From contig JAKSLL010000013.1 in NCBI GenBank assembly GCA_024401215.1, positions 1-57,902 of the forward strand: a stretch of 57,902 nt of DNA, in the 5' to 3' direction. This DNA is from Bacteroidaceae bacterium. GTDB lineage: Bacteria; Bacteroidota; Bacteroidia; Bacteroidales; Bacteroidaceae. The notes under the pieces were generated by a model. It worked only from the letters and a program-made list of their open reading frames with translations. It searched no databases and was not told the DNA's origin. How positions within the stretch are numbered: the first letter of the stretch is position 1; every line of letters starts with the position of its first letter. This document shows, in pieces, positions 5,684-14,671 of the stretch. Position numbers and translations under genes: made by a program.

Positions 5684-5779
5684 TAAATGGTAATAGTTAA
5701 AAAGATATGAAAGCCGCCACATCATAATACAAAGAGATTGGCACTTTTGTATGCAGTTTTTAATGATTACATCTTAATA

Positions 5780-6820
5780 ATGAAACAACCTTTATTAGGT
5801 AAGACGCTTAGTGAGTTGCAGGATTTATGCCTGCAACTCTCTATGCCAAAATTCACAGCTAAGCAGATTGCTCAGTGGATTTATGTAAAACATGTACATA
5901 CAATAGATGAAATGACCAACCTCTCAAAAGGAAACCGCGAGAAGTTGGATTTGTTGTATTGTGTGGGATGCTCAGAGCCAATAGAGGTGAATAGAAGCAT
6001 AGACGGCACAATAAAATTCCTTTTTCCTACGGAAGATGAGAAGTTTATAGAGACCGTTTACATACCAGATGGCGACCGTGCAACGCTTTGCATCAGCAGT
6101 CAAGTAGGATGCAAGATGAATTGTCTGTTTTGCCAGACAGGCAAGCAGGGGTGGAATGGTAATCTCTCAACAAGGGACATACTTAACCAAGTTTACAGCG
6201 TTGACCAGTTTCTGATGGAAGAAAAGAAGACCGCTTTGACGAATGTGGTGTATATGGGGCAAGGCGAACCGCTCGACAATATGGACAATGTCATGAAGTC
6301 ATTGGAGATTCTGACATCCGACTACGGATGGGCATGGAGTCCGAAACGCATCACGCTCTCAACTGTCGGTTTGAAAAAGAATTTGCAGAGGTATCTCGAA
6401 GAATGCGAATGTCATCTCGCAATATCTCTCCACACACCTATTCACGAACAAAGATTGCAGCTTATGCCTGCAGAAAAACAATTTGCCATTCATGACATTG
6501 TGGAGTTTCTGAAAGGATATGATTGGTCGCATCAGCGAAGAGTCACATTCGAATACACAATGTTTGGAGGCACAAATGACACGCCATTGCACTCTCGAGA
6601 ATTGGTGAAACTACTAAGTGGGCTTGAATGTCGTGTCAATCTCATCAGATGGCATAAAATTCCTGATGTGCCATTAAAAGAAGTCGAGAATAGAAGCATG
6701 GAGTCGTTCCGTGACTATCTCAACAATCATGGAATAACAACAACAATACGCGCCTCAAGAGGTCAAGACATTTGGGCAGCATGCGGATTGCTCTCAACGA
6801 GGAAGCAGATGGAGCAATAA
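5780..6820 (+). CDS. rlmN: 23S rRNA (adenine-2503-C2) / tRNA-A37 methyltransferase, radical SAM
   Basis: 346 residues starting at ATG 5780 (MKQPLLGKTLSELQD); an upstream in-frame extension of 14 residues has no family similarity. The radical-SAM cluster motif is CKMNCLFC (Cx3CxxC), preceded by SSQVG. Near the C-terminus RASRGQDIWAACGLL carries the conserved cysteine that is methylated during the reaction. GQGEPLDNMDNV and the TLSTVGL region are also standard. The enzyme methylates A2503 in 23S rRNA and A37 in some tRNAs. Its position after glyA, a supplier of one-carbon units, may be chance. Confidence 0.95.
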   Translation: MKQPLLGKTLSELQDLCLQLSMPKFTAKQIAQWIYVKHVHTIDEMTNLSKGNREKLDLLYCVGCSEPIEVNRSIDGTIKFLFPTEDEKFIETVYIPDGDRATLCISSQVGCKMNCLFCQTGKQGWNGNLSTRDILNQVYSVDQFLMEEKKTALTNVVYMGQGEPLDNMDNVMKSLEILTSDYGWAWSPKRITLSTVGLKKNLQRYLEECECHLAISLHTPIHEQRLQLMPAEKQFAIHDIVEFLKGYDWSHQRRVTFEYTMFGGTNDTPLHSRELVKLLSGLECRVNLIRWHKIPDVPLKEVENRSMESFRDYLNNHGITTTIRASRGQDIWAACGLLSTRKQMEQ

Positions 6821-6893: not shown

Positions 6894-7940
6894 ATGAAGT
6901 ATAAGATAATAGCAATGCTTTTACTTGTTGGATTTGCTTTTGCTGCTTGCGACAGCAAATCAAACACACCGCAACGACGTCGCAGAAGCGCCAGTTTGCT
7001 TACCCCTGTTTCATCTGGTAATCCATACGAGATTATGGTTGTGGCAGATGACAGCGTTTGGAATGGCTATGCTGGCAAGGCTCTGAGGCAGATTCTTGAC
7101 AAGCATCTTATCGGTCTTCCTCAGGATGAACCTCAATTCCACAAGAGTCATATTGAGGAGAAGCATTATGACAATATCACTAATCTGTTCAGGAACATCA
7201 TACACATCGAAATCAGCAGAGAGTACACAAAAGCCAAGATGGTCATAGAAAGGGATGTCCATTCAACTCCACAACTTATTCTCTCTGTGCATGCTCCAAG
7301 CCAGTATGATGCATCGGTTTATATTACCGAACATACAAAAGCCATAGAGACATTGTTCTCTTCAGAGGAGATCAACCGAGAGGCTAATGACCTGTACTTT
7401 GAGCATAACATCAAATTCGCAAAGAAAGTGAAGGAGATGTTTGGCTGTGATTTCTACATTCCAGTTGACATCAAAAGCATGAAGATTGGCGAGGATTTCA
7501 TCTGGGCATCTGATGATGGTCTTTCAACAATACAGAACATCTGCATTTATTCACTTCCTTACGTTAGTGAGAAGATGTTCACAAAGAAGCCATACATCGC
7601 TCTTCGTGACACAATGATGAAACGCAACATACCAGGAGAGAGACCTGGTGAGTACATGCAGACGAACCCTGATTTTGTGTGGACAAAGAACATAAGTGTG
7701 AAGAACTATTATTCGTTTGAAGCTCGTGGACTTTGGGAGATGCGCAATGTTGCCATGGGCGGACCTTTTGTGAGTCATTCACGCATCGACAAGAAAAACA
7801 ATCGCGTGATTGTTGTTGAAGGTTTTGTGTATGCACCAGAAAAGATGAAGCGCACAATGATACGACGTCTTGAAGCAGCTCTTTACACTCTTCGCACACC
7901 TGACCAGATAGAGGCGGAAGACGGAGAAGGCGAAAATTAA
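6894..7940 (+). CDS. DUF4837 family lipoprotein
   Basis: 348 residues with a lipoprotein signal (lipobox FAAC, Cys19), so it is probably anchored in the inner or outer membrane. After a short Arg/Ser-rich linker the mature region resembles DUF4837, a Bacteroidetes family of unknown function: it begins SGNPYEIMVVADDSVW and continues through LPQDEPQFHKSHI and GEYMQTNPDF. It lies 73 bp after rlmN and 29 bp before the pdxA-like gene, so the three may be cotranscribed. The family assignment is from memory of its characteristic opening. No catalytic motif is evident. Confidence 0.8.
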   Translation: MKYKIIAMLLLVGFAFAACDSKSNTPQRRRRSASLLTPVSSGNPYEIMVVADDSVWNGYAGKALRQILDKHLIGLPQDEPQFHKSHIEEKHYDNITNLFRNIIHIEISREYTKAKMVIERDVHSTPQLILSVHAPSQYDASVYITEHTKAIETLFSSEEINREANDLYFEHNIKFAKKVKEMFGCDFYIPVDIKSMKIGEDFIWASDDGLSTIQNICIYSLPYVSEKMFTKKPYIALRDTMMKRNIPGERPGEYMQTNPDFVWTKNISVKNYYSFEARGLWEMRNVAMGGPFVSHSRIDKKNNRVIVVEGFVYAPEKMKRTMIRRLEAALYTLRTPDQIEAEDGEGEN

Positions 7941-7969: not shown

Positions 7970-9067
7970 ATGGCAAAGATAAGAATTGGCATAACACAAG
8001 GTGACATTAACGGAGTAGGTTATGAACTCATACTGAAGACATTCTCGACTGAAGATATGCTTTCATTATGTACTCCAATAATTTATGGTTCACCTAAAGC
8101 AGCCACTTACCATCGCAAGGCAATAAATAATCAGACAAGTTTTACTGTTGTTGATTCTGCTAATGATGCTAAGGAAAATGTGCTGAACATGGTGAACTGT
8201 TATGGTGATGATGAACAGAAGATAGAGTTCGGGCAGGCAACAGAGGAGGCAGGTAAATATGCCATGACATCACTCAATTCAGCTATAGCAGACCTTCGTG
8301 AAGGCAGGATTGACGCTTTGGTAACAAGCCCTTTGAATAGGAATGTCATCAAAAATGAAGACGGTTCGGTATTTGGAGGTGAGTCAGCATATTTCGAGCA
8401 GATATTAGGTGAAGGCAAAAAAGCAGTTGATGTGTACATCAGTAACAACCTGAGAGTTGCATTGTTAACATCTAATCTCCCAATCTCGCAAGTTGCTGAA
8501 AAGATAACAAAAGAAAGCATTGCTGAGAAGATTGTGATTCTGCACAATACTTTGAAGAGAGACATGGATATTGACATTCCTCGTATTGCTGTTTTGTCTT
8601 TCAATCCAACTATGGGTGAAGATGGAAAGTTCGGCAAAGAGGAAGAAGAGGCTATTTCACCAGTCATTGATGAACTGTTCAAGAGAGGTGTGAGATGCAT
8701 GGGGCCTTATGCTGCAGACGAATTCTTCGGAACAGACAATTACAAGCATTTTGATGCGGTGCTTGCAATGTATCATGACCAAGGACTTGCGCCTTTCAAG
8801 GCCATCGCTATCGACGAGGGCATTTTGTACACGGCAGGTCTTCCTATTGTGCATACAACAGTTGTGGGTGGCACTCAATACTCCATAGCAGGAAAAGATG
8901 AAGCTGATGAGCTTGCTTTCCGCCATGCAATCTATACGGCTATTGATGTTGTTCGCAACCGCAATCGTTTTGACCATGCTCGTCAAAATCAGCTAAAGAA
9001 GCAGTATTTTGAGAAGAGAGATGATTCGGACAAACTCAAACTTGACCAAGTTACCGATGAGGATTGA
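7970..9067 (+). CDS. PdxA-like protein (4-hydroxythreonine-4-phosphate dehydrogenase family) lacking key active-site residues
   Basis: 365 residues that align along their length with PdxA: GITQGDINGVGYELI at the start, VTSPLNR, VLAMYHDQGLAPFKA and GLPIVHT. PdxA oxidises 4-phosphohydroxy-L-threonine in pyridoxal phosphate synthesis and needs a metal held by three histidines (E. coli His166, His211, His266). Here the THLPL histidine is Asn169 (TSNLPI), the NPHAG histidine is Thr214 (NPTMG), and only His269 (YHDQG) remains. The substrate-site GHTE motif is GESA (138-140) and the DHGT motif is VGGT. The protein is otherwise full length and undamaged. It may be a non-catalytic relative or have a new substrate, so I do not give it the pdxA symbol. 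A strong terminator follows. Confidence 0.85.
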   Translation: MAKIRIGITQGDINGVGYELILKTFSTEDMLSLCTPIIYGSPKAATYHRKAINNQTSFTVVDSANDAKENVLNMVNCYGDDEQKIEFGQATEEAGKYAMTSLNSAIADLREGRIDALVTSPLNRNVIKNEDGSVFGGESAYFEQILGEGKKAVDVYISNNLRVALLTSNLPISQVAEKITKESIAEKIVILHNTLKRDMDIDIPRIAVLSFNPTMGEDGKFGKEEEEAISPVIDELFKRGVRCMGPYAADEFFGTDNYKHFDAVLAMYHDQGLAPFKAIAIDEGILYTAGLPIVHTTVVGGTQYSIAGKDEADELAFRHAIYTAIDVVRNRNRFDHARQNQLKKQYFEKRDDSDKLKLDQVTDED

Positions 9068-9138: not shown

Positions 9139-10182
9139 TTGAAGAATAAAACTCGAAACATCTTTTTCGCTTTTGGAATAATCGCGGTCATCATAATGCT
9201 CTTTACATTTAAGGTGTCATTTGTGGAGCTGTGGAATGACATTCTAAAAGCAGGTTATTGGCTGGCTGCCATACTATTGATGTGGTTTGTTCTCTATGTT
9301 ATGAACGCATGTACATGGAGAATAATTATCAAAGGTTCAGGCGACTGCCCTATCCCATTCTGGAGGCTTCTGAAAATTACCATCACGGGATTTGCTTTGA
9401 ATTATGCGACACCTGCTGGCCTCCTTGGAGGTGAACCATATAAGATTATGGAGCTAAAACCATACATCGGTTCAGAGAGGGCAACATCGAGTGTCCTTCT
9501 ATTCGCAATGATGCATATTTTCTCTCATTTCTGGTTTTGGACAACGAGCATTGTAGTGTATCTGATATTGGCATTACTTGGTTATCTGCCATTAGGAACA
9601 GGTATCATCATCGTACTTTCGTTTATGGCAGTGTTTTGTGGAGCAGGCATTTATATGTTCACAAGGGGCTATAAGAACGGCATAGTAGTCAAACTCATAA
9701 ACTTTGTAAAGAAGATTCCTTTCTTGAAAAAGTGGGCAACAAAGTTTGAGGAGAAGAACAAAAATGAACTAAAGAAGGTTGATACACAAATCGCTGAATT
9801 ACAATCTCAAAACAAGAAGAGCTTCTATGGCAGCTTCTTTTTAGAGTACATTGGAAGGCTATGCCAAAGTTTTGAAATATATTTTATGCTCATCCTCTTT
9901 GATGCAGGAGATGGTGGCTTTTTGACATTTCTGTATTCATTTCTGATTCTCTCCTACACAAGTCTTTTCGCCAACCTTCTGTTTTTTCTTCCGCTTCAGC
10001 TTGGTGGTCGTGAAGGAGGATTCGCAATGTCAGTTGCTCAGATGGGAATGACAAGCGAGATCGGAATGTTTGTCAGCATTATTTGCAGAGTGAGAGAGAT
10101 TTTTTGGACATCGTTAGGACTGTTTTTAATAAAAATAGGAAATAATAAAAATGAAGATATTAGGAATCAGCAGAGCGCATAA
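9139..10182 (+). CDS. Lysylphosphatidylglycerol-synthase-TM/flippase-like membrane protein
   Basis: 347 residues, mostly hydrophobic, with about seven to eight membrane segments. It resembles the LPG_synthase_TM (UPF0104/YbhN-like) family, with family-like motifs NYATPAGLLGGEPYK and LPLQLGGREGGFA. Relatives flip or help make modified lipids. There is no ATG before the first membrane helix, so the TTG at 9139 (MKNKTRNIFFAFG) is the best start; the next ATG would cut into helix 1. Its end overlaps the ATP-grasp gene by 32 nt, which implies translational coupling. In an inositol-lipid locus it may move or hold an inositol-modified lipid; that is inference. Confidence 0.75.
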   Translation: MKNKTRNIFFAFGIIAVIIMLFTFKVSFVELWNDILKAGYWLAAILLMWFVLYVMNACTWRIIIKGSGDCPIPFWRLLKITITGFALNYATPAGLLGGEPYKIMELKPYIGSERATSSVLLFAMMHIFSHFWFWTTSIVVYLILALLGYLPLGTGIIIVLSFMAVFCGAGIYMFTRGYKNGIVVKLINFVKKIPFLKKWATKFEEKNKNELKKVDTQIAELQSQNKKSFYGSFFLEYIGRLCQSFEIYFMLILFDAGDGGFLTFLYSFLILSYTSLFANLLFFLPLQLGGREGGFAMSVAQMGMTSEIGMFVSIICRVREIFWTSLGLFLIKIGNNKNEDIRNQQSA

Positions 10183-11002
10183 ATACTCTCCTAATCTTAC
10201 AAATAGTGACAGCGCAATATTTAATGCTGTCATTTCAGAGCTGGAGACATCTGGCAATTTTGTGGAGACAATCGGCGAGGAGGAAATGCTTCAATACGAC
10301 TACTCACCCTTTGACCGAGTGTTCACAATGGCGAGAGACACATTTAATATTGTGTTGCTCGAAAAAGATACAGATGTTGAGACACAAAAGAAATTTATTA
10401 ATTCTATAGATGGAATACTGACTGCCACAAACAAAGCGGCAGTTGCTTCCCAAATGCTTGACGCAGGCATCCCCCAGCCAGAGTTTCTTGTTGGAGAAAA
10501 GCGAAATTTGTATTTCTGTTCAGCAGAAAGTAAGAATGACATTGTCCCTCCTTTGTGGCTTAAAAATTGTGATGGCAGCGCAGTTGTTGCTGATGACACG
10601 ATTTTCTGCAATACGAAGGAAGACTTTGAGAAGGCTTTCAGCAATTTTGAAACTCGTGGCGTAAATATGTGGATGGCGCAAATGCATCAACCTGGCGACT
10701 TGATAAAATTCTATGGAGTGGAAGGAACGAATTTCTTCTCATGGAATTATGCCAGCAAGAGCCATTCAAAGTTTGGTCTTGAATCTATCAATGGAGAAGA
10801 GAAAGGCTATGCTTTCGACCCAGAAAGAGTGAAGTTGTATGCTGATATGATTGCTAAAAAGATTAATGTGCCTATTTATGGCGGAGATGCTGTGATAGAC
10901 GCAGATGGCAATTTTTATTTCATAGACTTCAACGATTTTCCTAGTTTTTCAAGCTGTAGAGAAGAAGCAGCAAAAGCCATAGCGCAAAGGATAGCCCTAT
11001 AA
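10151..11002 (+). CDS. ATP-grasp domain protein, probable kinase or ligase of the inositol-lipid locus
   Basis: 283 residues. The N-terminal part looks like the pre-ATP-grasp fold (KILGISRAHKYSPN), with NKAAVASQMLDAGIPQPE and LWLKNCDGSAVV as the ATP-binding half. The end, VIDADGNFYFIDFNDFPSF, carries the metal-binding Asp/Asn pattern of ATP-grasp enzymes. The DxNxFP-like ending also recalls inositol-phosphate ITPK-type kinases, although RimK-type ligases share it. The gene starts inside the preceding flippase-like gene and precedes the phosphatidyltransferase. A role in modifying inositol or its lipid is plausible from context but not shown by the sequence. Confidence 0.6.
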   Translation: MKILGISRAHKYSPNLTNSDSAIFNAVISELETSGNFVETIGEEEMLQYDYSPFDRVFTMARDTFNIVLLEKDTDVETQKKFINSIDGILTATNKAAVASQMLDAGIPQPEFLVGEKRNLYFCSAESKNDIVPPLWLKNCDGSAVVADDTIFCNTKEDFEKAFSNFETRGVNMWMAQMHQPGDLIKFYGVEGTNFFSWNYASKSHSKFGLESINGEEKGYAFDPERVKLYADMIAKKINVPIYGGDAVIDADGNFYFIDFNDFPSFSSCREEAAKAIAQRIAL

Positions 11003-11021
11003 TTCAGCATATTGGAATCGT

Positions 11022-11132
11022 ATGACACGCCGTCCAAAAGTGTTTGTGATTGTTTTCGGCATATTGCTTTTGGCGGCTCTCACAAATTTCCGATTTGCGT
11101 ATGTTGATTACCTACTTATAAGAAATATTTAA
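11022..11132 (+). CDS. Possible 36-residue membrane peptide
   Basis: ATG at 11022 opens a 36-codon frame, MTRRPKVFVIVFGILLLA and onward, ending YLLIRNI. It has a positively charged start and one membrane helix. It fills the gap between the ATP-grasp and phosphatidyltransferase genes in the same direction, with 19 and 6 bp spacing. Against it: the last third coincides with a copy of the end of a dispersed repeat (11104-11118). It could be a real small membrane protein or an accident. Confidence 0.3.
   Translation: MTRRPKVFVIVFGILLLAALTNFRFAYVDYLLIRNI
11104..11118. repeat. Solo end of the dispersed AAGTAGG element
   Basis: TTGATTACCTACTTA is identical to the right end of the element at 51533-51618. 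No second end is recognisable nearby. It is probably a degraded copy just upstream of the phosphatidyltransferase gene. Confidence 0.5.
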
Positions 11133-11138
11133 TTTGAA

Positions 11139-12137
11139 ATGCAAGAGAAAGTTCATTTAACAATAAAGTCTGATGACACAGAAGAGTGGCTCGATACAGT
11201 ATGGACTCGTCCCATAGGTTATCTGTGGGCTGTGTTTTTCCAGCGACTTAACATTCATCCTAATACAGTCACCATTCTCTCAATGATTATTGGTGCTGGT
11301 TCTGCATATTTTTTTGCAAGCGGTTCATACCGTATTGATGGATTGCATGGTTTGATATTCAACATTATAGGTGTACTCCTTTTGGCATGGGCGAATTTCT
11401 ATGACAGCGCAGATGGGCAGCTTGCTCGAATGACAGGGAAGAAAACACAGCTTGGGCGTATTCTTGATGGTGCAGCAGGAGATGTGTGGTACATTTTTAT
11501 ATATAATGCTCTGATTGTCAGAATGTATCTCTACCATGATATGGAATTTGGATGGTTAGGCATTGAGAATACAGAAAGAAACACCATTATTTATGTTGTG
11601 ACAATGTATTCTTTCATCGTTCTTGACGGACTTGGCTGTCATGCAGGCCAGTGTGCTTTGTCTGATTATTATCGCCAGATACACCTGCTGTTTCTGAAAG
11701 GCAAAGCCGGCAGCGAACTCGACACTTATGCCCAGCAAAAGATAAATTATGATTCAACTCCATGGAAAGGCAATTTCATAAAGAAAGTGTTTTTGTTTTT
11801 CTACACTAAATGGACCAGGAGTCAAGAGAGACGTACCCCTCAATTTCAGAAACTATTCTCTCTTCTTAAGAGTCGATACAGTTCTATTGAGAACGTGCCT
11901 CAGTCATTCCGCGATGAATTCCGCTCACAAAGTCTGCCAATGATGAAATGGACAAATATTCTCACATTCAACACAAGAGCTATTGCCCTTTATGTGGCAT
12001 GTCTGACAGACCTTCCATGGCTTGTCCTTGCTTTTGAAATCATTGTGCTTTCGGCTATTCTCATGCACATGCATCATACACACGAAGGATTCTGCAAGAA
12101 ACTTTATGAGAAGCTGAACAATGAAGTACAACAATAA
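11139..12137 (+). CDS. CDP-alcohol phosphatidyltransferase, probable phosphatidylinositol-phosphate synthase
   Basis: 332 residues with about six membrane helices. The family signature is present as DSADGQLARMTG, an 8-residue gap, then GRILD. The fourth aspartate is displaced by one residue (DGAAGD rather than DxxxD). The enzyme would join CDP-diacylglycerol to an alcohol headgroup in the inner membrane. With inositol-3-phosphate synthase and a HAD phosphatase downstream the likely acceptor is inositol phosphate, as in the inositol-lipid clusters known from gut Bacteroides. Other CDP-alcohol transferases cannot be excluded by motif alone. A dispersed repeat begins within its stop codon. Confidence 0.8.
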   Translation: MQEKVHLTIKSDDTEEWLDTVWTRPIGYLWAVFFQRLNIHPNTVTILSMIIGAGSAYFFASGSYRIDGLHGLIFNIIGVLLLAWANFYDSADGQLARMTGKKTQLGRILDGAAGDVWYIFIYNALIVRMYLYHDMEFGWLGIENTERNTIIYVVTMYSFIVLDGLGCHAGQCALSDYYRQIHLLFLKGKAGSELDTYAQQKINYDSTPWKGNFIKKVFLFFYTKWTRSQERRTPQFQKLFSLLKSRYSSIENVPQSFRDEFRSQSLPMMKWTNILTFNTRAIALYVACLTDLPWLVLAFEIIVLSAILMHMHHTHEGFCKKLYEKLNNEVQQ

Positions 12138-12450
12138 GTAGGTAATCAAAATTATCGATATGTTCATCCTCGTAGGTGCGCCCGCATAGTTCCTTCAGTT
12201 GAAGATAAGTAGATGTTCAAAATTATTTACATAATACACAAGTAGGCGTTTTCGATATTTGACACATCCTCATTGAGGCATCTTTCCATTTCATTTTCAG
12301 TCACAATGCCCGCATTGCTCCTTCAAATGAAAACGAAAATCTGCGCTCAAATAGAACGCATCAAATATTTAAATAATTATGAACACCTACATAGTAATCT
12401 GCATCAAAATAGAATATATCTATTATTAAACTACTTTTAATAACCTACAT
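12136..12450. repeat. Long copy (315 bp) of the AAGTAGG terminal-inverted-repeat element
   Basis: The left end AAGTAGGTAATCAAAATTAT is shared with copies at 48093-48173 and 51533-51618. The right end (12414-12450: TATTATTAAACTACTTTTAA then ACCTACAT) matches the opposite end of the 51533 copy. The interior is longer than in the other copies. It holds a second left-end-like unit at about 12206, a third at about 12234, and two GCCCGCAT modules near 12180 and 12308. No reading frame of note is present. It fills the whole gap between the phosphatidyltransferase and HAD genes. It looks like a non-coding mobile element, MITE- or REP-like. Confidence 0.7.
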
Positions 12451-12468
12451 AAAAAAAAGACATCGCAA

Positions 12469-13212
12469 ATGATTCAAGGAATAATATTTGATTATGGAGG
12501 CACGATTGACACTAACTCCATACATTGGAGCGAGGTTTTATGGGAGGGGTATCAGGCCATTCATATACCTGTGTCTAAAGAAGAATTCCGTGTGAGCTAC
12601 GTTTTTGCAGAAAGGACGTTGGCAAAGCATCCTTATATACAGCCAAATCACAATTTTCTTGATTTGCTGAAGATAAAATGCGACATCGAAACAGATGATC
12701 TTGTGAATAGGAAAATCTGGCTATGCGATAATGAAGAACGCAAGGAGAAAAGTAACGCCGTTGCAAAATATTGCTATGACTATGTATTAGATGTGCTGAA
12801 AATTTCTCGTCCTGTAATACAGCAGCTTTCAGAGAAATACCCTCTTGTACTTGTGAGCAACTTCTATGGAAATATAGAGACAATACTTTCTGACTTTAAG
12901 CTTGAGTACTTCAAAGACATCATTGAAAGTGCTGTTGTGAAAGTACGCAAGCCTGACCCACAAATTTTCCAATTAGGTATTGATGCTATGCGAAAGGTTA
13001 TGAATAAGACACCAGAAGAATTGCCTTCAACCGACATACTTGTTGTTGGAGACAGCTATTCAAAAGATATCATTCCTGCTGCGTCATTAGGATGCAAAAC
13101 CGTGTGGATAAAGGGTGTCGGATGGGAGGAAGAGAAACATGACGAATCTCATGCAACACATATTATTTATAACATCTCTGAACTCTTAAATATGGATTTT
13201 AGTGACCTGTAG
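12469..13212 (+). CDS. HAD-family hydrolase, probable phosphatidylinositol-phosphate phosphatase
   Basis: 247 residues of HAD subfamily I type. Motif I is IIFDYGGTIDT, with the nucleophile Asp but Gly at the usual second Asp position, as in some other active HAD groups. Motif II is LVSNF, motif III the Lys in VRKPDPQIF, and motif IV is VVGDSYSKDI. It is soluble with no signal peptide. Lying between the phosphatidyltransferase and ino1, it would remove the 3-phosphate of the inositol lipid or of inositol phosphate; the substrate is inferred from position only. Its promoter may come from the right end of the repeat just upstream (TACTTTTA). Confidence 0.75.
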   Translation: MIQGIIFDYGGTIDTNSIHWSEVLWEGYQAIHIPVSKEEFRVSYVFAERTLAKHPYIQPNHNFLDLLKIKCDIETDDLVNRKIWLCDNEERKEKSNAVAKYCYDYVLDVLKISRPVIQQLSEKYPLVLVSNFYGNIETILSDFKLEYFKDIIESAVVKVRKPDPQIFQLGIDAMRKVMNKTPEELPSTDILVVGDSYSKDIIPAASLGCKTVWIKGVGWEEEKHDESHATHIIYNISELLNMDFSDL

Positions 13213-13300
13213 CAATAGAAAACACATCAATCTTAATCAAATCTTACTTATTGACTATTTGTTGCGAACAAAAGATTACAACTATGTTGAAATAAAGATG

Positions 13301-13308
13301 TAACTTTG
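13301..13308 (+). promoter_or_regulatory. ino1 promoter, -7 box
   Basis: TAACTTTG fits TAnnTTTG exactly and lies 34 bp before the ATG. No TTG is at the standard 19-20 bp upstream position. It suggests that inositol-3-phosphate synthase can be made independently of the upstream lipid genes. Confidence 0.6.
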
Positions 13309-13342
13309 TAAGAAAATAACCAAAATTAAAAATAAGGATAAA

Positions 13343-14671
13343 ATGAAAAATTCTAACGTAAAACCAGCTGAAGGTAAGTTGGGTATTATGGTTGTAGGTC
13401 TTGGCGCTGTGACTTCTACTTTTATGACCGGCGTTCTTATGACTCGCAAAGGACTTGCGAAACCAGTTGGTAGTATGACACAGTATGATAAAATTCGTGT
13501 AGGTAAAGGTGCTGATAAGAAGTACCTCACATACTCAGAAATTGTGCCTATGGCAAAGCTCGATGATATTGTTTTTGGAGCATGGGATGTGTATCCAGCA
13601 AATGCTTTCCAAAGCGCAATGTATGCTGAAGTTCTTAAAGAGAAGGATATAATGCCTGTAAAAGACGAACTTGAGAAAATCGTACCTTTCAAAGCTGCTT
13701 TCGACAAGAACTTTGCAAAGCGTCTTGATGGTGACAACGTAAAGGATTGCGCTACACGATGGGATATGGTCGAAGAGATTCGTGCCGACATCAGAAAATT
13801 CAAGGCAGAAAACAACTGCTCACGAATTGTTGTAGCATGGGCAGCTTCAACTGAGATTTACGTAACTCCTAACATGAAGGTTCACGACACCCTCGAGCAT
13901 CTTGAAGCTGCTATGAAAGCTAATGACAAGGTGAATATTGCTCCTTCTATGTGTTATGCTTATGCTGCATTGGCAGAGGGCGCTCCTTTCATCATGGGTG
14001 CTCCAAATACCACTGTTGACATTCCTGCTATGTGGGAGATGTCAGAGAAGACAGGAATGCCAATTGCAGGAAAGGATTTCAAGACAGGACAGACACTTGT
14101 TAAGTCTGGTTTTGCGCCAATAATCGGCACACGCTGTCTTGGTCTTAACGGATGGTTCTCAACAAATATCTTGGGAAATCGCGACGGACTGGTGCTTGAT
14201 GAACCAGCAAACTTCCGCACTAAGGAGGTGAGCAAGCTTTCAACACTCGAGACAATACTCAAGCCAGATGCTCAGCCAGACCTCTATGGACATGGCAATG
14301 ATGAGGACAACCAGTATTACCACAAAGTGCGCATCAACTACTACCCTCCTCGTAATGACAATAAGGAAGGATGGGACAACATCGACATCTTCGGATGGAT
14401 GGGCTATCCTATGCAGATTAAGATAAACTTCCTCTGCCGTGACTCAATTCTTGCAGCACCTCTGCTTCTCGACCTCTGCTTGCTGAGCGACCTTGCTGCT
14501 CGTGCCGGAAGAAGCGGCATCCAGCGTTTCCTCAGCTTCTTCCTCAAAGCTCCTATGTTCGATTACACACAAGGTGAGGAACCTGTAAATCATCTCTTCC
14601 AGCAATATACAATGCTTAAAAATGCTATCCGTGAGATGGGTGGCTATGAGGCTGATGAAGAAATAGATTAA
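13343..14671 (+). CDS. ino1: Inositol-3-phosphate synthase
   Basis: 442 residues. The NAD-binding glycine motif is IMVVGLGAVTSTF near the N-terminus. The signature regions NTTVDIPAMWE, AGKDFKTGQTLVKSG, LGLNGWFSTNILGNRDG and SILAAPLLLDL are all recognisable for myo-inositol-1(3)-phosphate synthase. The cytosolic NAD-dependent enzyme isomerises glucose 6-phosphate to inositol 3-phosphate. It is the committing step for the inositol lipids that the upstream genes would build. The gene has its own promoter, is intact, and has codon use like highly expressed genes. Confidence 0.95.
   Translation: MKNSNVKPAEGKLGIMVVGLGAVTSTFMTGVLMTRKGLAKPVGSMTQYDKIRVGKGADKKYLTYSEIVPMAKLDDIVFGAWDVYPANAFQSAMYAEVLKEKDIMPVKDELEKIVPFKAAFDKNFAKRLDGDNVKDCATRWDMVEEIRADIRKFKAENNCSRIVVAWAASTEIYVTPNMKVHDTLEHLEAAMKANDKVNIAPSMCYAYAALAEGAPFIMGAPNTTVDIPAMWEMSEKTGMPIAGKDFKTGQTLVKSGFAPIIGTRCLGLNGWFSTNILGNRDGLVLDEPANFRTKEVSKLSTLETILKPDAQPDLYGHGNDEDNQYYHKVRINYYPPRNDNKEGWDNIDIFGWMGYPMQIKINFLCRDSILAAPLLLDLCLLSDLAARAGRSGIQRFLSFFLKAPMFDYTQGEEPVNHLFQQYTMLKNAIREMGGYEADEEID

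Follow-up and report, generated by a model that had tools for sequence, protein, structure and literature searches.

The window, a stretch of 57,902 nucleotides from a genome of the Bacteroidaceae, encodes a PdxA homologue that has lost catalytic residues of its active site. The gene is nevertheless full length and under purifying selection. In the same genome pdxJ was not found and the pair pdxS-pdxT is present, and PdxA proteins degraded in this way occur in 11 families of the Bacteroidales. We think it likely that the protein is a pseudoenzyme under selection, and that the PdxA of this order has a second, non-catalytic role that outlives its role in vitamin B6 synthesis and is kept after a switch of pathway.

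The gene, its active site and its neighbours

The gene (Table 1) starts with ATG and encodes 365 amino acids without an internal stop; thus, it is full length and in frame, as a first-pass annotation of this DNA had stated. Residues 33-324 of the protein match PF04166 (E 9.7e-90) over positions 2-286 of the 286 in the profile. The score against TIGR00557, the model for PdxA (4-hydroxythreonine-4-phosphate dehydrogenase), which annotations usually assign to vitamin B6 synthesis, was 276.5 bits. This is below the curated cut-off of 290.35, and an intact relative (L044) scored 364.5 bits. With the model for D-threonate 4-phosphate dehydrogenase (NF002891), whose cut-off is 583 bits, the protein reached 141.

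We compared the active site with that of E. coli K-12 PdxA (from NC_000913.3) by alignment, and we use E. coli numbering throughout unless stated. K123, H136, T137, H166, H211, N283, R292 and H297 are all replaced in the window protein (Table 1). In E. coli PdxA, H166, H211 and H266 are the metal ligands, and H136, N283 and R292 are substrate residues. D247, H266, D267 and K274 are retained as D250, H269, D270 and K277, and the C-terminal motif IAGK is present. The alignment confirms the earlier claim that two metal histidines have become Asn169 and Thr214, leaving only His269. The motif changes reported with it (GHTE to GESA, TTHLPL to TSNLPI, NPHAG to NPTMG and DHGT to VGGT) are also correct, except that the step from D to V in the last is partly ancestral, because intact Bacteroidales PdxA proteins of named loci mostly have AHGT.

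Table 1. Positions of the features discussed (window coordinates unless a locus is given)
Feature	Location	Strand	Basis
rlmN; neighbours intact as well as degraded pdxA on the upstream side in many mapped loci	5738..6820	+	TIGR00048, 346.6 bits, cut-off 290
DUF4837 gene, direct upstream neighbour of pdxA	6894..7940	+	PF16125, E 3.6e-97
pdxA-derived gene, catalytically degraded PdxA homologue	7970..9067	+	ORF; PF04166; TIGR00557
Codon N14 of GDINGVGYE (Ala15 in E. coli); 28/28 genus, 21/21 other degraded sequences	8009..8011	+	
Codon R124, in place of Lys123	8339..8341	+	alignment to E. coli PdxA
GESA for GHTE (H136 to E138, T137 to S139)	8378..8389	+	alignment
Codon N169, in place of metal ligand His166	8474..8476	+	alignment
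Codon D198 (Lys195 in E. coli); 28/28 genus, 21/21 other degraded sequences	8561..8563	+	
Codon T214, in place of metal ligand His211	8609..8611	+	alignment
Codon H269, equivalent to His266, sole metal histidine left	8774..8776	+	alignment
Codon L286, in place of Asn283	8825..8827	+	alignment to E. coli PdxA
Codon H295, in place of Arg292	8852..8854	+	alignment to E. coli PdxA
Codon G300, in place of His297	8867..8869	+	alignment to E. coli PdxA
Codon R331; 28/28 genus, 95% of 21 other degraded sequences	8960..8962	+	
C-terminal tail KRDDSDKLKLD	9014..9046	+	common to intact PdxA of Bacteroides, Phocaeicola and relatives
PdxA of genus g43 with C-terminal extension	L163:3873-5363, L164:6116-7651, L165:5983-7488	-	

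These changes are neither an error of sequencing nor the damage of one isolated gene, because each of the 28 sequences of the genus that we analysed retains no more than two of the four catalytic histidines. We also rejected a horizontally acquired paralogue beside a true pdxA. The window's genome, which is 93.55% complete and 7.04% contaminated, gave no second PF04166 gene in a profile search, and the neighbours of the single copy are the same as in intact relatives.

In Bacteroides-like loci and in family f38, the order rlmN-DUF4837-pdxA is seen whether the pdxA copy is intact or degraded. The DUF4837 gene immediately precedes pdxA of either kind in families f1, f38, f67 and f101 (it is missing from this place in L102 and L160). 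An M17 aminopeptidase gene precedes intact and degraded copies in other families, and several degraded loci have neither neighbour. The common gene order of intact and degraded copies argues for descent in place and for no particular function, and we dropped the neighbours as a clue to function because adjacent genes vary between families. Directly behind pdxA (9139-14671) the window carries an inositol-lipid-like gene set with an LPG_synthase_TM protein, a CDP-alcohol phosphatidyltransferase, a HAD phosphatase and a myo-inositol-1-phosphate synthase; an ATP-grasp-like open reading frame within it (10151-11002) has no Pfam match.

Pocket, selection and vitamin B6 route in the genus

Statistics on the genus rest on 28 of its 43 genomes with a PF04166 match, because 30 of the 43 genes were retrieved and read. 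Rows left out of the alignment were L025 and L083 (contig end), L028 (X residues), L212 and L213 (fragments), L124 (another type of PdxA) and L176. Merging 10 rows with identical cores reduced the alignment from 175 to 165 rows. As a reference we used 69 sequences from part of the PdxJ-positive genomes (69 and not 70, as L184 was misaligned after trimming and left out). The active site was followed at ten positions: H136, T137, H166, H211, H266, D267, K274, N283, R292 and H297.

The ten residues were exact in 67 of the 69 PdxJ-positive sequences and in none of the 28 from the genus. None of the 69 is degraded; two have one substitution each (L103 and L171). Even the histidine that the window protein retains, that equivalent to His266, is present in only 8 of the 28. 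Mean pairwise identity in the genus was 0.58 at the ten sites and 0.67 elsewhere, and the corresponding values for 21 other degraded sequences of the order were 0.20 and 0.37, whereas intact proteins were 0.99 identical at the ten sites. We drew 500 sets of ten columns at random, matched for conservation, and none of them was as low as the active site in either degraded group.

The genus is not uniform. Seventeen sequences (L010, L012-L024, L026, L027 and L029), not including that of the window, share one altered pocket, Q-T-K/N-x-Y-D-K-N-R at the first nine sites (Q138, T139, K/N169, Y269, D270, K277, N286 and R295 in window numbering), and are more alike at the ten sites (0.86) than elsewhere (0.77). 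The other 11, to which the window belongs, show the reverse, with 0.41 at the ten sites and 0.60 elsewhere. The window pocket, ESNTHDKLHG, equals that of its nearest relative, QTSKHDRNRM, at 2 of 10 sites, as against 71% identity over the rest of the protein. No common altered set was found among the 11 or among the 21 other degraded sequences. Judged from these comparisons, the pocket in the window's group looks released. That of the 17 may still be in use and bind something, or it may merely have been inherited through recent shared ancestry.

Across its full length, the gene evolves under strong purifying selection in this genus. Among the PF04166 matches listed for the genus (43 of 45 genomes), none has a stop inside. 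The median dN/dS (NG86) was 0.073 (0.028-0.144; 73 usable of 88 pairs) in the genus and 0.046 (75 usable of 285 pairs) in intact PdxA, for pairs of different identity ranges (74-99.5% and 80-99.5%, respectively) in which many synonymous distances are near saturation.

Vitamin B6 appears to be made by another route in these bacteria, because pdxS-pdxT is present in the window's genome and pdxJ was not found there. The search for PdxJ (PF03740), which does detect PdxJ in Bacteroides ihuae, gave no match in any of the 45 genomes of the genus, including the window's own, whereas PdxS was found in 41 of 45. In the window's genome pdxS lies on another contig than pdxA and is directly followed by pdxT (L218); the two scored 506.8 bits (TIGR00343) and 224.3 bits (TIGR03800). 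The first-pass annotation had suggested that the species obtains vitamin B6 otherwise, and these results support it; it had also advised a search for a second, intact pdxA and for pdxJ, neither of which was found in this genome. In one other member of the genus, a gene upstream of pdxS-pdxT (L222:3543-4430, minus strand) joins the N-terminal half of a ThiD-like kinase to an AraC-type helix-turn-helix C-terminus and, from this composition, is possibly a B6-sensing fusion.

Named genomes show the same pattern. We sought PdxS in the genus and in 50 named genomes, out of 80 named loci. The 14 named genomes with a degraded PdxA had PdxJ in 0 and PdxS in 11 cases, and the 36 others had PdxJ in 34 (counting L105, where it is in two pieces with a stop) and PdxS in none. 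These counts are not independent, as 12 of the 14 degraded loci (L031-L040, L045 and L083, but not L087 and L097) are near copies of other loci of the genus. Single gene absences are also weak, because most named relatives are metagenome-assembled genomes; the pattern rests on many.

Recurrence across the Bacteroidales

Retention of PdxA in genomes without a PdxJ match recurs in the order. In a sample of 238 Bacteroidales genomes, for which at least 90% completeness was requested, PdxJ was found in 209 and PdxA in 235. All 29 genomes without PdxJ retain PdxA (nine of them were identified by their absence from the PdxJ-positive list), and PdxJ is present in each of the three that lack PdxA. Besides the window gene we retrieved the PdxA genes of the other 28 PdxJ-less genomes. 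Including that of the window, 20 of the 29 genomes carry a degraded, open PdxA, and they belong to 11 families (f1, f2, f4, f5, f15, f38, f50, f83, f91, f96 and f101). In the remaining nine (L115-L123) PdxA looks intact or almost so. In eight of these PdxJ may be unassembled, because the genomes are 90-95% complete. The other, G252, is 99% complete and differs at the ten sites by H136Q alone, a change also present in a PdxJ-positive genome (L171). Degradation does not always reach the metal site: 4 of the 21 other degraded sequences (L126, L130, L131 and L137) have all three metal histidines, with H136 and other sites changed. In a table inspected by eye, the 15 weakest PdxA best matches (7.2e-90, that of the window, and weaker) come without exception from genomes that lack PdxJ; no PdxJ-positive genome has a best match weaker than 2.3e-98.

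The state appears to have arisen several times. On a tree of 87 rows, made by a quick method from an alignment without the active-site columns and with L123 and L171 (H136Q alone) counted as intact, the degraded state required 13 changes, at least 4 of which are forced by well-supported branches. The window's genus forms one clade (SH-aLRT 97). Inner branches are weakly supported in 41 of 84 cases, and the positions of the long rows L142, L143, L137 and L135 are unsure.

Two genomes are instructive. G177, one of the 20 with a degraded PdxA, is Candidatus Azobacteroides pseudotrichonymphae, as its 37,111-base replicon is 100% identical to NC_011561.1 over the 6,000 bases searched. The genome of this endosymbiont, of about 1.225 Mb in agreement with a table in PMC4285135, has no PdxJ match but retains an extremely diverged PdxA-derived open reading frame of 326 amino acids with 44 bits to PF04166 (L142:1411-2388). 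G195 has a degraded PdxA next to a DUF4837 gene (L143:1408-2445; tail RGRDDYKLDLTKDEE). A second PdxA of this genome (L124), on a different contig, is of the GDPAGIGPE type and looks intact. Thus, G195 retains the degraded copy although an intact-looking member of the family is at hand.

We rejected a spread beyond the Bacteroidales. The sample of the class comprised 296 genomes, 288 of them with PdxJ, and gave five PdxJ-less genomes from outside the order. Four of the five have the exact ten-residue set; the sequence of the fifth, G605, is fragmentary.

The degraded proteins are not conserved evenly. G11, D12, N14, E19, P36, D198, F199, P204, I206, A207, N212, G245, P246, D262, Q271 and R331 (window numbering) are among the residues that are near-invariant in them, although the window itself has Met199 at the F199 column. 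Some of these residues differ from their E. coli counterparts (N14 is Ala15, D198 is Lys195 and A207 is Leu204). In contrast, the columns lost in both degraded groups are mostly shared with E. coli (K123, H136, H166, H211, G213, H266, S294, H297 and others). The conserved non-catalytic residues may serve folding or dimerisation only.

The tail KRDDSDKLKLD was rejected as a general key to a second role. It did not appear in most of the sequences that we read in other families. Our pattern for it missed 70 of the 165 rows, and these include all but two of the 21 other degraded sequences; diverged forms occur in L125, L139 and L143. At the same end of the protein, the intact-site PdxA of genus g43 has a low-complexity extension of more than 100 residues that ends in FKDYSDLT or YDDYKDMT.

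A proposed second role for PdxA and its alternatives

Our model addresses where the window gene came from, how it lost catalysis and why it persists. We propose that the gene is a vertical descendant of an ordinary Bacteroidales pdxA. Catalysis would have been lost after the lineage moved vitamin B6 synthesis from PdxA/PdxJ to PdxS/PdxT, and the gene would have persisted because the protein has a second job that requires a folded protein and not the catalytic pocket. Most probably, the protein would bind a partner, either another protein or an RNA, or serve as a scaffold for it. We infer that it is non-catalytic, that it is older than the losses and that it acts through such a partner. The presence of broken copies in close relatives and in many distant lineages that lost PdxJ suggests that the second job exists across the order. 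The first-pass annotation had left the choice between a pseudoenzyme and an enzyme with a new reaction. We favour the pseudoenzyme for the window protein, because its ten catalytic positions drift while purifying selection acts strongly on the gene overall; of the two proposals, a new function in binding or catalysis is the less favoured. The genus-wide state and its recurrence in 11 families go beyond what that annotation had claimed.

The stable altered pocket is the main reason to consider a neofunctionalised protein, which would carry out another reaction with different residues or act as a sensor of a phosphorylated ligand. As 17 of the 28 genus sequences share this pocket and conserve it better than the rest of the protein, ligand binding is possible, and this counts against a purely non-catalytic role; the strong purifying selection also speaks for neofunctionalisation. 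However, the window pocket has little in common with that of its nearest relative, the 11 sequences outside the stable group are less alike at these sites than elsewhere, and the 21 other degraded sequences keep T137, K274, N283 and R292 in only 24%, 38%, 19% and 29% of cases, respectively. We therefore regard neofunctionalisation as unlikely, if worth bearing in mind. It is also doubtful, and to a greater degree, that the protein became a lineage-specific regulator or partner in B6 metabolism after the pathway switch, for example a partner of PdxS/PdxT or a carrier of PLP. Degraded PdxA and PdxS mostly co-occur in the genus, and the same pair is found in KHT7 (L087). Yet the degraded PdxA of RGIG5947 (L097) stands in a metagenome-assembled genome with neither a PdxJ nor a PdxS match, L033 and L040 (both from metagenome-assembled genomes) also lack a PdxS match, pdxS is on another contig in the window's genome, and one late invention is insufficient to explain retention that recurs in many families.

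The two remaining explanations fit the data poorly. If the protein were a working PdxA, or another dehydrogenase of the PdxA family, with an unusual metal site, the conserved fold family and the C-terminal IAGK would be accounted for, but the enzyme would have to work without two of three metal histidines, H136, N283, R292 and H297. No use of its product in B6 synthesis is known where PdxJ is missing, and the D-threonate 4-phosphate dehydrogenase score is below the cut-off of that model. On the sequence data we consider such an enzyme very improbable. That the gene is a decaying relic without function is scarcely credible: the ruined active site and the failure to find PdxJ would fit, but the gene is kept in 43 of 45 genus genomes with no stop in the listed matches, dN/dS is about 0.07, and retention extends to 29 of 29 PdxJ-less Bacteroidales and to an endosymbiont of 1.2 Mb.

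The preferred reading, a pseudoenzyme kept for a second role, can be taken one step further. We lean slightly towards the view that PdxA of the Bacteroidales is an obligate two-function protein, in which a core role is added to the B6 reaction. This role would be exerted through regions away from the active site (those of N14, D198, D262 and R331) and would explain, where the B6 reaction by itself does not, the near-universality of the gene; the switch to PdxS/PdxT would have laid it bare in the window protein. According to PMC3547785, pdxA of Porphyromonas gingivalis was classed as essential on blood agar; this agrees with a second role but does not prove it. The route table of a vitamin survey gives PdxA in brackets beside PdxJ (PMC6593275). 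No description of a retained, degraded Bacteroidales PdxA turned up in the titles and abstract openings of the papers searched, and those listed for PdxA together with pseudoenzymes or moonlighting contained nothing on PdxA itself.

If the Bacteroidales keep PdxA for something else, it would be an error to call B6 prototrophy in this order from PdxA alone, and the essential-gene call for pdxA in P. gingivalis may have been misread. A dominant gut order would then have an unrecognised, near-universal protein function. The 11 families in which the pathway was lost, the gene kept and the pocket changed offer ready-made separation-of-function proteins.

Three known systems can be compared with the window protein. 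It is like PdxA (PF04166, TIGR00557; E. coli structures 1ptm and 1ps7) along the whole domain and keeps the motifs GDxNG, NP, GP and DQ, and its gene shares the order rlmN-DUF4837-pdxA with the intact pdxA of Bacteroides and Phocaeicola. It differs from PdxA in having lost H166, H211, H136, K123, N283, R292 and H297, in scoring below the TIGR00557 cut-off and in standing in a genome where no PdxJ was found. PdxA2, the D-threonate 4-phosphate dehydrogenase (2hi1, 6e85, NF002891), belongs to the same superfamily and is detectable by sequence search, but the window protein matches it more weakly than PdxA and its lineage groups with intact Bacteroidales PdxA on the tree. Pseudoenzymes are catalytically dead relatives of enzymes that are kept for binding roles. 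The window protein has likewise lost catalytic residues while its gene is under purifying selection; it differs from pseudoenzymes in general in that no other PdxA copy was found in the genome and in that the state arose several times in one order.
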